Shown in pieces: positions 27,284 to 31,823 of a stretch of 64,000 nucleotides of DNA. The stretch covers positions 310,001 to 374,000 of the forward strand of contig NZ_CANDOB010000002.1 of NCBI RefSeq assembly GCF_947387515.1, written 5' to 3'. The translations under genes and the position numbers were made by a program. The DNA is from Alkalihalobacillus sp. CinArs1 (GTDB lineage Bacteria; Bacillota; Bacilli; Bacillales; Guptibacillaceae). Position 1 is the first letter of the stretch; every line of letters begins with the position of its first letter. The notes under the pieces are model-generated. The model saw nothing but the letters and a program-made list of their open reading frames with translations, made no database searches and was not told the origin of the DNA.

Positions 27284-27562
27284 ATTCTAGTATTAAAAAC
27301 TGTTAATCTCATTCTCGCAATCGTTGCAATGAGTGCTGGGATGTATGATTTGTTTATTGATAGACTAAACATAAGTATGACCATTAAGACGCTGTTGTTA
27401 GCCTCTTTGTTTACGATGTTTGGGATCGAACATGCCTTGAAAAGGGAAGAAGGGAAGAGGGCGTTCAACATCTTTCTTTTTGGAGGCGTTATTCTTTTCT
27501 TAAGGCTTGGGATTCAGTTCGTTTGGCATGTGGCAGAGGTTTACTTCCTCTCGTCAAATTGA
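27284..27562 (+). CDS. DUF3953-like small membrane protein with probable ATT start
   Basis: The first in-frame ATG is at 27329, inside a hydrophobic helix and without an SD. An excellent GAGGGGG (27270-27276) lies 7 nt before an in-frame ATT at 27284. Starting there gives about 92 residues beginning (I/M)LVLKTVNLILAIVAM, which matches the usual DUF3953 opening (basic residue, then LILAI helix), followed by FGIEHALKREEGKRA and a last helix. ATT is a rare bacterial initiator, best known from infC. Alternatively the original ATG has mutated. The gene lies 24 bp after the previous one. Confidence 0.6.
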   Translation: MLVLKTVNLILAIVAMSAGMYDLFIDRLNISMTIKTLLLASLFTMFGIEHALKREEGKRAFNIFLFGGVILFLRLGIQFVWHVAEVYFLSSN

Positions 27563-27587
27563 CAAACGAACTGGTGTCGCATATGAT
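27559..27587 (+). promoter_or_regulatory. Strong sigma-A promoter of the MutS2-like leader
   Basis: Perfect TTGACA (27559-27564), 17-bp spacer, TATGAT (27582-27587). It overlaps the stop codon of the preceding gene. Predicted transcription start is near 27594, which places the whole structured leader on this transcript. Confidence 0.75.
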
Positions 27588-27785
27588 TGTCAGTAACAGA
27601 ACTTTTTACCGCCTAAACAAGAATAGGAGAATGATGTATGAGTGTGGTTGTTCTTAACTAATCCACAAATTGGATAGCACCTGTTGTAATGAAGAAAAAA
27701 CGTGCCTGAGGGACGTTTACTTCGTTATGGAATCAACAGGGCAGTTAAGAACAAGCATAAGCATAGCTGAACTTCATCATAGAAC

Positions 27786-27818
27786 GCTATGACTGGCTTA
27801 TTCAGTCATAGCTTTTTT
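27786..27818 (+). terminator. Leader terminator 1
   Basis: GCTATGACTG (27786-27795) pairs perfectly with CAGTCATAGC (27803-27812), then TTTTTT. Its 5' arm can instead pair with CATAGC at 27762. Confidence 0.88.
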
Positions 27819-27870
27819 GATGTCTCGGGCGGTAAAAAGGGGATTCGTATGGAATCCATCTGTTTATCAT

Positions 27871-27909
27871 AAGCCACGATGAGCTAACAAGCTTGTCGTG
27901 GCTTTTTTT
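27871..27909 (+). terminator. Leader terminator 2, 14 nt before the MutS2-like start codon
   Basis: AAGCCACGA (27871-27879) pairs with TCGTGGCTT (27896-27904), inner AGC/GCT, then seven T. A small GGATTC/GAATCC hairpin (27841-27857) precedes it. Its place between promoter and gene marks it as an attenuator. Confidence 0.85.
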
Positions 27910-27922
27910 ATAGGAGGAGAAC

Positions 27923-29839
27923 ATGAATACACAAACATTTGAAACATTAGAATTCAACGAAATCATCGAAGCGATCAGCACATTCGCCTTAACGAATAGA
28001 GGAAAAGAATCGATCCGTCACTTGAAGCCATCAATTAACCAGAGCATCATCGAAAGATGGCTAGAAGAGGTTGAAGAAGGCGTCGCGATTTTAAACGTGA
28101 GTGGAAGTGTGCCGCTTCATAGCTTGAACGACATAGGGCTCTTGATCGAGCAGGGGAAAAAAGGACTTTTCATTCGAGCGATTCAATTCACAGAAGTCGT
28201 TTCATTTCTAGAGCACTGTACGAAGCTGAAGAGGTTCATGAAGGATAAAGGTACAGTCGCACCTACGATTAGCTTGTATGCTGATTCAATCGAGGATCTA
28301 AGTTCTCTAGAAGAACAAATTCATGCGGTGATCAAGCATGGCCAAGTCGATGATCATGCATCTAAAAATTTGCTGAAAATCAGGAAGCAGCATAGTGTGA
28401 AGAAAGAGAAGCTGAAGGAACGGCTTGAAACGCTTGCGAAAAAATATGCAAAGTGGATGCAAGAAGCACGTCCTGTTGAGAAAAACGGTCGCCAGACGTT
28501 ACCGATCAAACGAGAGTATCGTAAGAAGGTAGCCGGCACTGTAATCGATCAATCGTCATCAGGTGCAACGCTTTTCATCGAGCCGAATGAGCTTTCTGCG
28601 ATCCATGATGAACTGCAGCTCTTAGCTCTCCAGGAGGAGCAGGAAGTCGAGCAGATCCTTTACGGATTGACTGGTGAAGTGCTCGCTTATGAGCGTGAGA
28701 TCAACATCGCATTAGAAACGATGCATCAGTACGACATCATTTTTGCAAAAGCGAAGTATAGCCGGAGAATCGATGGAAAGACACCAGTATTCTCAAGTGA
28801 TTTCACAATCGATATCAAAGCAGCAAAACATCCACTTTTAGGTGAAAAAGCTGTTCCACTATCGCTAAAAATGACTGAAGGTGAACAAGCGCTTCTCATT
28901 ACAGGACCAAATACGGGTGGAAAGACGGTCACGTTGAAAACGGTCGGCCTGCTCTGCATGATGGCACAGTGCGGAATTCCGATTCCGACGAAAGAACCGT
29001 CTGCGCTGCCGATCTACCAGCAGATCTTCGTTGATATTGGAGATGGTCAGAGTCTTGAAGAGAACTTGAGCACGTTCAGTTCGCGCATGGTGAACCTGAT
29101 CGATATCTTACGAAAAGCAAATGACCACTCGCTTCTATTACTAGACGAAATCGGCTCTGGTACGGACCCTGGTGAAGGAATGGGACTCGCAACTGCAATC
29201 CTTGATCAGCTCGCAGCCAAAGGTGCAACGATTTTTGCGACGACGCACTATAGTGAGATGAAGCAGTATGCGAAAGAGAAGGAAGGGTTTATCAACGGTG
29301 CAATGGAATTCGATCTCCAAACCTTGAAGCCGACGTATCAATTACTCCTCGACACGACTGGAAAGAGCCAGGCCTTTGCGATCGCGCATAAGCTCGGGCT
29401 TCATCCTGATATCTTAAAGCATGCGAGCAAGATCACGTATAACGAAGAACAGGATTTTACAGTAGAAAAAGATGTGCTTTCGACGAGTGATTACAAGCAG
29501 CAGGTAACGGTGAATCGGTATGGCAGGAAAACGGCGAAAAAAGAAGAAAAAGCGGAAGTGACGTTGTTTGAGCAAGGAGACAACGTGATTGTTCAAGCAA
29601 GTGATGAAATGGGAATCGTGTATAAAGGTCCCGATGATCTTGGCAACTACATCGTACAGGTTCAGGGGGAGAAAAAAACGTATAATCATAAACGGCTTCG
29701 TCTGCACATCTCGGCAAACGATCTTTACCCAGAGGATTATGACTTTGATATCATCTTTAAGTCCAAGGAATATCGAAAAACGAAGAAGGTGATGAATCGT
29801 AAGTTTGTTGAGGGACTGACGCTTGAAGACGAGGATTAA
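27923..29839 (+). CDS. MutS2-like ATPase lacking the Smr nuclease domain
   Basis: 638 residues against about 785 for full MutS2. Core/lever and clamp helices (about 1-320), then the ABC-type MutS ATPase: Walker A GPNTGGKTVTLKT (about 327-339), signature STFSSRM, Walker B LLLLDEIGSGTDPGEG (about 402-417), His switch ATTHYSEMK. After a long helical segment comes a KOW-like stretch (GDNVIVQASDEMGIVYKG, about 550-600). No Smr domain follows; the protein ends acidic (EGLTLEDED). MutS2 ATPases bind collided ribosomes or recombination intermediates. A Smr-less form with KOW would fit a ribosome-splitting rather than cutting role (inference). SD AGGAGGAG; preceded by the attenuator-like leader. Confidence 0.88.
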   Translation: MNTQTFETLEFNEIIEAISTFALTNRGKESIRHLKPSINQSIIERWLEEVEEGVAILNVSGSVPLHSLNDIGLLIEQGKKGLFIRAIQFTEVVSFLEHCTKLKRFMKDKGTVAPTISLYADSIEDLSSLEEQIHAVIKHGQVDDHASKNLLKIRKQHSVKKEKLKERLETLAKKYAKWMQEARPVEKNGRQTLPIKREYRKKVAGTVIDQSSSGATLFIEPNELSAIHDELQLLALQEEQEVEQILYGLTGEVLAYEREINIALETMHQYDIIFAKAKYSRRIDGKTPVFSSDFTIDIKAAKHPLLGEKAVPLSLKMTEGEQALLITGPNTGGKTVTLKTVGLLCMMAQCGIPIPTKEPSALPIYQQIFVDIGDGQSLEENLSTFSSRMVNLIDILRKANDHSLLLLDEIGSGTDPGEGMGLATAILDQLAAKGATIFATTHYSEMKQYAKEKEGFINGAMEFDLQTLKPTYQLLLDTTGKSQAFAIAHKLGLHPDILKHASKITYNEEQDFTVEKDVLSTSDYKQQVTVNRYGRKTAKKEEKAEVTLFEQGDNVIVQASDEMGIVYKGPDDLGNYIVQVQGEKKTYNHKRLRLHISANDLYPEDYDFDIIFKSKEYRKTKKVMNRKFVEGLTLEDED

Positions 29840-29939: not shown

Positions 29940-31823
29940 ATGACGAATGTGGAATTTGAAAAGCTCGTTAAAGAGAAGGAGATCGAAGCGAAACAAAATC
30001 CGAGTGCATACAGGAGGAAGGTAGCAGCATTTTCATTGATTGGGTACGGTTACCTCCTTTTGGTGTTTGGAATCATCCTTAGTTTGTTTTCGATTGCGAT
30101 CGTGAATTTTATTAGCGGCTCTTTTACGTTTGGCGGAATAAAAGTTGGCATCATCACATTGGTTGTAGGTATCATCATGGCCCGAGCGCTGTGGGTTCGA
30201 TTCGATCATCCTGAAGGCGTCACGCTATCAGAGGAAGATGCGCCTGAACTATTTAAGACGATTAATGAGATTCAATACAAATACAAAACGAAACAGGTTC
30301 ATGAAGTGCTGTTGACCAATCACTATAACGCAAGCGTTGTGCAGCATCCGCGTCTCGGTATTTTCGGCTGGTACAAGAATTATCTCGTCCTCGGACTACC
30401 GCTCATGCAAGCACTGTCACGCGAACATCTCGATGCCATCATCGCTCATGAGATGGGCCATCTGGCGAATAAGGATGGACAGTTCGGAACATGGTTGTAT
30501 CGGGTGCGTGAAACGTGGATCACCCTTTTGGATAAGTTCGAAGAATCCGAAGTGTGGGGCGGTTTTTTATTCAGATGGTTCTTTCGCTGGTTTGTCCCAC
30601 GGTTCGATGCTTACTCTCATGCATTAGCGAAACAAGAAGAGCATGAAGCTGACTGCTTTTCGAGTCACTATACGGATCCACATGCCGTTGCTGAAGCGTT
30701 AGTGATCACAGAAATCAAAGCAGAGCGATACGATGAGTTCTGGGAGACGTTATATGACAAAGGCTTAGAAGAAAAAGAGTGTCCACGTCCGTTCGCTCGG
30801 GTGCAAGACGTGTTGGATCATCACGATCCGGTTCGGCAAGAGAGTGTGTTGATGAAGGCGATGAAGCGTGTGGCCTCGATCAATGATACGCATCCATCCC
30901 TTTCTGAGCGGCTCAACAAGTTAGAAGTCGTGGTGAGTCAGGTTCCGATCGTCACCTATCCGGCAGCTGAGCTTTATTTAGAAGGTAAGGACCATTTTAT
31001 TGAGTACTTTGATGATGTTTTTGTTCGAGTGGAGAAAGAAGATTGGAAAGAGCGTAAGTATGAGAAACAGCAGCTCAAGCTTGAGTTAGAAGAGTTAGGG
31101 TCTAACCCGACACTCTCAGTAGACGACGCGATCAAACGAGCGACGCTTTTTGAAGATGTGTATGGAACGAAAAAGGCTGTGCCGATCTATGAACAATTGT
31201 TGGAAACGTACCCTGAGACGAAGTCGAACGTATCGGTTTTGATGGGGTTAGGGAACGCTTACTGCGAAGATGAAAACGTGAAATGCTTAGAATGGTTAGA
31301 GGAAGCGATCAAACGAGACTATCGTGTCGGCTTTGATGCGCTTTCCCTCATGGCTAGGTACTATGAATCGAAAGGGCTTTATAGTGAGATCGAATCACTT
31401 GATCAACGTGCAGCGGAATGGAGCGACCTCGTCGAGAAAGCGGACGAGGAACGGAGCGAAGTGAGACCTGATGATGCGTATCGTCTGCCAGTTGTGAAAA
31501 GTGAGGTCATCCGAATGCTCTCACAGTACCTTCGAATGTTTCCACAGGTAAAAGTCGCTCACTTACTTGAAAAAGTAGTCACGCACTTCCCTGATCAAAA
31601 AGTGTACGTGTTAACGATTGAGCTAGAAGAATCTTATCTCACGAATAGAAAACGAAGCGCGTTTATCGAACGGGTTTGTGAAGAGCTCGAAGCGGACGAA
31701 GAGATCCTCGTACAAGTAACGAACGGAAACAAACCGATGAAGCGGGCGGTCTCCGAACACCCTAAGAGTGTTATCTATGAAAAAGGGAAGAAATTCATTG
31801 AGCCTATGCCTTCTGTTGGGTAA
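29940..31823 (+). CDS. M48-family zinc metalloprotease with TPR-like C-terminal half
   Basis: 627 residues. Two N-terminal helices (about 27-85), then the M48 catalytic domain with zinc motif AIIAHEMGHLANKDG (HEMGH near 170-174) and the third ligand in EEHEADCFSSHY about 65 residues later, ending near 320 with THPSLSERLNKLE. The remaining 300 residues are helical and TPR-like (KAVPIYEQLLETYPETKSNVSVLMGLGNAY; LEWLEEAIKRDYRVGFDALSLMARYYESKG), presumably a cytosolic platform for substrates. It resembles HtpX-type membrane quality-control proteases but with an unusually long C-terminus. A TATAAT box lies at 29904-29909. Confidence 0.88.
   Translation: MTNVEFEKLVKEKEIEAKQNPSAYRRKVAAFSLIGYGYLLLVFGIILSLFSIAIVNFISGSFTFGGIKVGIITLVVGIIMARALWVRFDHPEGVTLSEEDAPELFKTINEIQYKYKTKQVHEVLLTNHYNASVVQHPRLGIFGWYKNYLVLGLPLMQALSREHLDAIIAHEMGHLANKDGQFGTWLYRVRETWITLLDKFEESEVWGGFLFRWFFRWFVPRFDAYSHALAKQEEHEADCFSSHYTDPHAVAEALVITEIKAERYDEFWETLYDKGLEEKECPRPFARVQDVLDHHDPVRQESVLMKAMKRVASINDTHPSLSERLNKLEVVVSQVPIVTYPAAELYLEGKDHFIEYFDDVFVRVEKEDWKERKYEKQQLKLELEELGSNPTLSVDDAIKRATLFEDVYGTKKAVPIYEQLLETYPETKSNVSVLMGLGNAYCEDENVKCLEWLEEAIKRDYRVGFDALSLMARYYESKGLYSEIESLDQRAAEWSDLVEKADEERSEVRPDDAYRLPVVKSEVIRMLSQYLRMFPQVKVAHLLEKVVTHFPDQKVYVLTIELEESYLTNRKRSAFIERVCEELEADEEILVQVTNGNKPMKRAVSEHPKSVIYEKGKKFIEPMPSVG

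Follow-up and report, generated by a model that had tools for sequence, protein, structure and literature searches.

Experiments on the vmlR gene of Bacillus subtilis have established ribosome-mediated attenuation there (Takada et al. 2022, PMC9226507); its TTATTT sequence acts as a NusG pause motif, and expression becomes leaky when this motif is mutated. A published table includes tet(M) among attenuators, with tetracycline as the drug (PMC5418344), and hflXr (lmo0762) of Listeria is an antibiotic-attenuated gene that encodes a homologue of a ribosome-splitting factor and gives resistance (PMC6310831). MutS2 of B. subtilis splits stalled ribosomes with its ATPase and is recruited through its Smr and KOW domains (PMC10897456). 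The leader analysed here lies in a window of 64,000 nucleotides of Alkalihalobacillus sp. CinArs1, upstream of a gene for a MutS2 paralogue. The proposed mechanism is of a known kind; its MutS2-paralogue target, its spread through the Bacilli and its tie to tet(M) were all absent from the open-licence literature searched, in which no report was found of MutS2 with attenuation, of SMR with paralogues, or of the uORF peptides.

The predicted layout of the leader resembles that of vmlR in having a uORF within the anti-antiterminator, a putative pause hairpin followed by a TTATTT-like sequence (TTACTT in the window), an antiterminator and an intrinsic terminator, an arrangement in which stalling would favour read-through. 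It differs in that the vmlR uORF has three codons (MIN) and precedes an ABC-F gene, whereas the window leader has seven codons, a MutS2 paralogue as its gene, a second strong terminator and a long-range helix involving its 5' end. The likeness to vmlR rests on layout, and no sequence kinship to vmlR is claimed. The tet(M) leader shares a 7-codon uORF (MRQGILK-stop), a P1 helix on the last codons, P2, P3 and a terminator, but has a different P1 sequence (GGTATTCTTAAA/TTTAAGAATACC). The locus is like hflXr in that a probably attenuated gene encodes a relative of a factor that splits ribosomes, and the role proposed below for the MutS2 paralogue is similar; the hflXr product is instead an HflX homologue, and its leader peptide has 14 residues with an RLR motif.

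The features of the locus are collected in Table 1. The promoter was the top-scoring of 10 promoter-like sites between 26500 and 31500. No other plus-strand site reached the scan threshold between it and the gene start, the next being at 27939, within the gene; a separate promoter just upstream of 27923, which would have refuted the preliminary description, was therefore not seen by the consensus scan. The numbers of promoter-like sites (10 versus 7.6 expected) and terminator-like sites (7 versus 4.0 expected) in the region were not unusual, and what goes beyond chance is the recurrence of the leader in distant homologues rather than the bare number of consensus sites. At least 10/12 promoter matches were found upstream of 85 of 116 homologous leaders compared with 32 of 580 shuffles. 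The segment from 27593 to 27925 folds at −132 kcal/mol, and P1, P2, P3 and the long-range helix P0 are all present in its minimum-energy fold. The preliminary description had proposed this promoter, a uORF, a 12-bp P1, a three-way junction, CATAGC, two U-tailed terminators and a long-range helix, all of which held. It had given the uORF seven to eight codons, which held only in part, since there are seven; a longer reading would have to start at one of the earlier ATGs, which are closely spaced and in a different frame. That the leader controls the MutS2-like gene, as also claimed, is inferred only, there being no expression data. An ATG at 27849, seen by eye in the hairpin that follows T1, was considered as the start of a further uORF and dropped, since loci L004 and L005 have no such ATG. 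Downstream of the MutS2 paralogue is a gene for an M48-type, HtpX-like protease (window positions 29940-31823).

Table 1. Features of the leader and of the gene behind it (window coordinates)
Feature	Position	Strand	Basis
Sigma-A-type promoter TTGACA-17-TATGAT	27559..27587	+	11/12 matches; at least 10/12 there in 85/116 leaders
P0 5' strand (long-range helix)	27602..27613	+	pairs with 27828-27839
Shine-Dalgarno AGGAG of uORF	27625..27629	+	sequence; aligned in homologues
7-codon uORF MSVVVLN-stop	27638..27661	+	ATG AGT GTG GTT GTT CTT AAC TAA, ATG at 27638, TAA to 27661; seven codons in 116/116 leaders checked
P1 5' strand (uORF codons 4-7 and first stop base)	27648..27659	+	fold, alignment
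P2 hairpin	27661..27675	+	fold
P3a/P3b with internal loop	27680..27740	+	P3a 27680-27686 with 27734-27740
TTACTT, one mismatch to TTNTTT NusG pause motif, after hairpin P3b	27717..27722	+	TTNTTT in 84/116 leaders
P1 3' strand	27743..27754	+	fold, pair counts
CATAGC, antiterminator 5' strand	27762..27767	+	hidden by start-codon end of extended P1 (predicted)
Terminator T1 with U6	27786..27818	+	hairpin 27786-27812, then U6
P0 3' strand	27828..27839	+	fold, swapped-partner test
Terminator T2 with T run	27871..27909	+	hairpin 27871-27904; seven T at 27903-27909
Smr-less MutS2 paralogue, 638 aa	27923..29839	+	TIGR01069, MutS_V, structure, tree

The 638-aa product matched TIGR01069 (mutS2) with 585.9 bits against a cut-off of 400, which shows the MutS2 core and ATPase to be present, and also matched Pfam MutS_V. 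The TIGR01069 match covers only positions 2-520 of 790, no family match to an Smr domain was found in the product by profile scan, and a conserved tail with LYP, YDFDI and RK stands in place of Smr. An AlphaFold2 model built from an alignment of 26 sequences (mean pLDDT 80.6, pTM 0.66) placed five strands at residues 554-596 that fit a KOW-like barrel (block pLDDT 80-84). Alignment to the canonical C-terminus with hhalign matched GD-V and the residues that follow, covering the start of KOW, but this match was weak, with a probability of 9%. The absence of Smr noted in the preliminary description thus held, while the KOW-like part that it described as retained is modelled, with weak profile support. 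The best Foldseek matches were MutS2 structures, with 37% identity to 7qv3_w, and the paralogue is 38% identical to canonical relatives over 511 columns. The same genome also encodes a full-length MutS2, an 802-codon frame with 37% identity over residues 2-544, and contains a further, weaker match of MutS type. In a quick tree, 65 leader-bearing paralogues with long frames separated from 15 canonical proteins with an SH-aLRT of 100; the divergent group described below was left out, and the tool gave a long-branch warning. The paralogue thus shares the MutS2 core and ATPase fold of B. subtilis MutS2 (PMC10897456), whereas canonical MutS2 carries the Smr domain that it lacks. By homology, and without biochemistry, the product probably splits or otherwise frees stalled ribosomes. 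However, deletion of Smr strongly reduced the binding of MutS2 to collided ribosomes (PMC10897456), which counts against this explanation. Since in B. subtilis MutS2 the KOW contact may be enough for some activity even when Smr is absent (PMC10897456), the Smr-less form may act on single stalled ribosomes.

A match to the MutS2 paralogue at E ≤ 1e-120 was present in 173 of 397 sampled genomes of the order (both paralogue groups, not each checked). Upstream DNA was fetched for 140 paralogue genes, 40 from search loci and 100 from the list of 173 genomes, which was not exhausted. A regular expression for the uORF/P1 motif matched 125 of the 140 upstream regions. At one of these loci (L143) it first met a chance site, the true leader scoring 77.2 bits with the leader covariance model. 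Two further leaders, in which codons or the stop were altered, were matched by the model (L057, 91 bits; L083, 79.4 bits), and L145 gave only a weak match (22.7 bits, E 0.009). The leader was therefore found upstream of 127 of 128 fetched main-group Smr-less paralogues (125 by regular expression and 2 by the model), and before none of 15 canonical MutS2 genes, which were checked in the window's family only. The 116-leader set used below comprises regular-expression leaders with GTT-C/T-TT codons and excludes nine of the 125 (L006-L013, L015), in which the uORF ends in VILN-stop. A divergent group of 12 genes, whose products share 39-42% identity with the window protein, carries a 7-codon uORF of its own in 12/12 cases, reading MS[AG][VI] plus three residues ending in K or N. 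Some leaders of this group (L155, L158 and further loci within L154-L165) contain, close to the start of the gene, a stretch complementary to the P1 3' region; the stretches in L155 are GGTAGGTATCTTC and GAAGATACCTACC, and the layout, judged by eye, is different. The window's version of the gene (L001, with L004 and L005) nests among genes of family f7. Among 14 genomes of the window's genus, nine (those of L006-L013 and L015) have a different version, behind a leader of the same type, and two have neither, so that horizontal transfer of the gene together with its leader is likely.

Every one of the 116 leaders had a uORF of exactly seven codons, as did the nine left out, and in 115 the uORF ended in V-L-N-stop. 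The combination of a short uORF with a Shine-Dalgarno sequence that characterizes attenuators of the vmlR/tlrB kind is thus present by sequence, its translation being inferred. P1 is a perfect 12-bp helix whose 5' strand is made of the last uORF codons. In alignment A1, which took in 61 of 72 representatives, the P1 core was paired in 549/549 cells; a single double change was seen, three pairs together had five wobble changes on one side only, and five pairs were invariant. The observed covariation score was reached by 8 of 500 shuffles, and the covariation of P1 itself is thin. Across kin leaders the P1 sequences differ yet still pair, as seen by eye for TATTGCTAA/TTGGCAATA before ABC-F and GGTATTCTTAAA/TTTAAGAATACC before Tet(M). 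MAFFT failed to align P3, so that RNAalifold recovered only P1, and P3 was therefore tested by folding and with swapped partners. Among 72 leaders there were 67 distinct P3a 5' strands, and in 40 of the 72 the strand's own partner scored above the 95th percentile of those swapped in from other leaders. The P2 strands read TCCA/TGGA in some clades and CCGTA/TACGG in others. Absence of covariation in P1 and P3, which would have refuted the preliminary description, was accordingly not seen: P3a holds with different sequences, though support from P1 is thin. For P0, a duplex-energy test was weaker (13/64 below the 5th percentile) and was redone with uninterrupted helices. The leader's own pairing then exceeded the 95th percentile of swapped partners in 22 of 64 leaders and the 99th in 18, and was unremarkable in the other 42. 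The helices lie in similar places with different sequences, and the long-range pairing previously proposed is thus kept with different sequences in some clades.

Within the internal loop, the best-fitting site was TTATTT in 74 leaders and another TTNTTT in 10 (of 116), a best-fit count that has no control, and a hairpin lay just upstream of the T-rich site in 99/116. An exact TTNTTT followed by TATG occurred in 46/116 leaders compared with 5/580 shuffles. Between the uORF and the gene, at least one terminator was found in 116/116 leaders and at least two in 96/116; among 20 shuffled control regions, seven had one and none had two. These counts replaced those of a first terminator counter that was too strict (0-3 per leader, none in 19/116).

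The predicted switch was examined by folding transcripts that end in the T1 loop, with the uORF region blocked or not, in the 62 of 116 leaders that have CATAG upstream of an early T1. With the uORF blocked, the median number of antiterminator pairs rose from 0.04 to 5.88, the value going up in 58 leaders, down in 3 and remaining unchanged in 1. This modelled rise follows in part by construction from blocking P1, and the low ribosome-free value is the telling part of the prediction. The start codon lay in a complementary run of at least 5 bp no more than 30 nt after P1 in 48 of 72 representatives. When the Shine-Dalgarno/start-codon segment alone was shuffled in 38 representatives, the antiterminator value without a ribosome went up in 33 and down in 3; in the model, then, the antiterminator strand is hidden by P1 at its start-codon end. 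An anti-antiterminator, an antiterminator and a terminator that exclude one another are thus predicted for the window and for 58 of the 62 testable leaders. Not every clade fits the antiterminator as drawn, because only these 62 leaders have the CATAG in place; leaders with MEG or MEK uORFs were seen by eye to be without CATAGC. Partners of the T1 arm beat swapped controls in 0/54 leaders, a null result attributed to the near invariance of CATAGC and GCTATG. T2 is the stronger of the two terminators, and among possible upstream partners of its 5' arm none was conspicuous (3/64 leaders above the 95th percentile). The present explanation leaves the strong T2, and how the gene is reached past it, unexplained. 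In some clades (L122, L133, L141) the uORF sequence CGTTCTT is a potential pairing partner of the 5' arm of T2.

When 397 genomes of the order and 398 of the class were searched with the leader covariance model R1, 136 and 77 of them, respectively, gave hits (per-genome E ≤ 0.01); the two samples overlap in part, and a few further hits were the same site on the other strand. Fourteen order hits were fetched, these being second hits in a genome or hits where the gene was missing, partial or weak in the paralogue search. They preceded four MutS2 paralogues with interrupted frames, one divergent-group paralogue, three ABC-F proteins, two methyltransferases, two acetyltransferases, one alpha/beta hydrolase and one unassigned region. 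The 40 hits fetched outside the order, not all of those found, preceded 27 MutS2 paralogues, 8 BpsA, 2 Tet(M), one acetyltransferase, one LmrB-like exporter and one unassigned region. Most downstream genes were named by reading translations. Family scans covered one ABC-F (L208), both methyltransferases, both acetyltransferases, the hydrolase and L202 within the order, and L233, L242, L267, L244, L251, L256, L257 and L245 outside it. The scanned ABC-F matched NF000355 with 466.3 bits (cut-off 380), a ribosomal-protection type, and Tet(M) scored 1507.6 bits (cut-off 1420). R1 detected the tet(M) leader itself at 40.9 bits (per-genome E 2.3e-5 and 3.7e-5). The likeness to antibiotic-inducible ABC-F leaders put forward in the preliminary description thus held and is now direct, the model finding leaders of both ABC-F and Tet(M). 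The uORFs of these kin leaders read MRQGILK-stop before Tet(M), MMPSYC-stop before ABC-F (by eye), and MSAVGSK-stop and similar in the divergent MutS2 group.

Several observations were made beside these hits. Copies of the Tet(M) leader region occur in 877 plasmid records, from near-identical to below 80%. In the tet(M) leader (L257, L259 and positions 457-480 of L268), the 7-codon uORF lies upstream of the annotated leader peptide, which in L268, the one record opened, is another ORF downstream (572-688 versus 457-480). A BpsA-like branched-polyamine synthase is directly behind the leader at L233, L235, L236, L238, L239, L242, L243 and L267, three of the eight being named by scan and the rest by eye, and right behind a MutS2 paralogue at L231, L232 and L237. 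Loci L198-L201 are the MutS2 paralogues with interrupted frames behind such leaders. The hydrolase at L207 is not claimed as an EstT macrolide hydrolase (32 bits against a cut-off of 450), nor the exporter at L256 as a member of LmrB (466 against 800).

From this anatomy, the kin genes and the vmlR precedent, we conclude that the leader is very likely a ribosome-mediated transcription attenuator of the vmlR/tet(M) kind. The anatomy, conservation, covariation, predicted switch and kinship to resistance-gene leaders are shown, while pausing, stalling, induction, the inducing drug and ribosome splitting are all inferred in the absence of expression data. In the proposed mechanism, the polymerase would make the uORF, P2 and P3 and then pause after P3b at the NusG-type T-rich signal, long enough for a ribosome to translate the seven codons. 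Once the ribosome finishes and leaves, P1 would close and its extension would pair the uORF start codon with the CATA of CATAGC; with CATAGC not free, T1 would fold and transcription would stop. A drug that holds the ribosome on the uORF would keep P1 from closing, and the freed CATAGC would pair with the T1 5' arm (GCTATG or GCTGTG), allowing the polymerase to read on. That the leader senses drugs is inferred from its company, namely the kin leaders before resistance genes. The joint reading, an attenuator opened by a drug-stalled ribosome whose product is probably a ribosome-splitting MutS2 paralogue, is likely. The earlier proposal that ribosome stress induces a ribosome-splitting ATPase is to this extent supported as an interpretation, with drug induction and splitting remaining inferred.

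Two other classes of regulator were set aside as very improbable. In an amino-acid attenuator, scarcity of Val, Leu or Asn would stall the ribosome at the VLN codons, in keeping with the near-universal V-L-N-stop. Against this, the uORF has only single Leu and Asn codons, the kin uORFs encode quite other peptides, the scanned downstream genes are not biosynthetic for Val, Leu or Asn, and the invariant VLN bases also form P1. A riboswitch, with a small molecule or even the drug as the ligand of the junction, would suit a three-way junction with a conserved internal-loop motif, but what is conserved in the loop matches the TTNTTT pause motif, and the fixed-length uORF overlaps P1. Moreover, no Rfam family matched the window at gathering scores, and at E up to 5 the best match, at 0.11, was to an unrelated family.

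A rival that remains possible keeps the attenuator as described but has it sense general translation stress (slow initiation, ribosome defects, collisions), with MutS2 acting in quality control. In its favour, vmlR is also induced by ribosome-assembly defects (PMC9226507), and the paralogue is common in the order. On the other hand, kin leaders precede drug-resistance genes, 224 of the 397 genomes are without the gene at E ≤ 1e-120, and the window copy looks horizontally moved. The drug-responsive attenuator is preferred.

A bolder reading, to which we give an even chance, is that one leader RNA family across the class Bacilli constitutes a ribosome-stress regulon in which the paralogues are a large and uncharacterised family of inducible ribosome-splitting resistance factors and the other targets, in other genomes, are Tet(M), ABC-F, an efflux pump, acetyltransferases and BpsA. 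The leader ties the MutS2 paralogue to the tet(M) leader by sequence, and if this reading is true, the switch would be old and chromosomal, with the leader of tet(M) as one of its branches that became mobile. The attenuator explanation itself predicts an inducible rescue factor for drug-stalled ribosomes, the Smr-bearing member being the one described in the literature consulted. With a covariance model of the leader, further stall-regulated genes may be found by their leaders. It also poses a testable question, whether MutS2 needs Smr, which recognises collided ribosomes, when its expression is itself gated by stalling.
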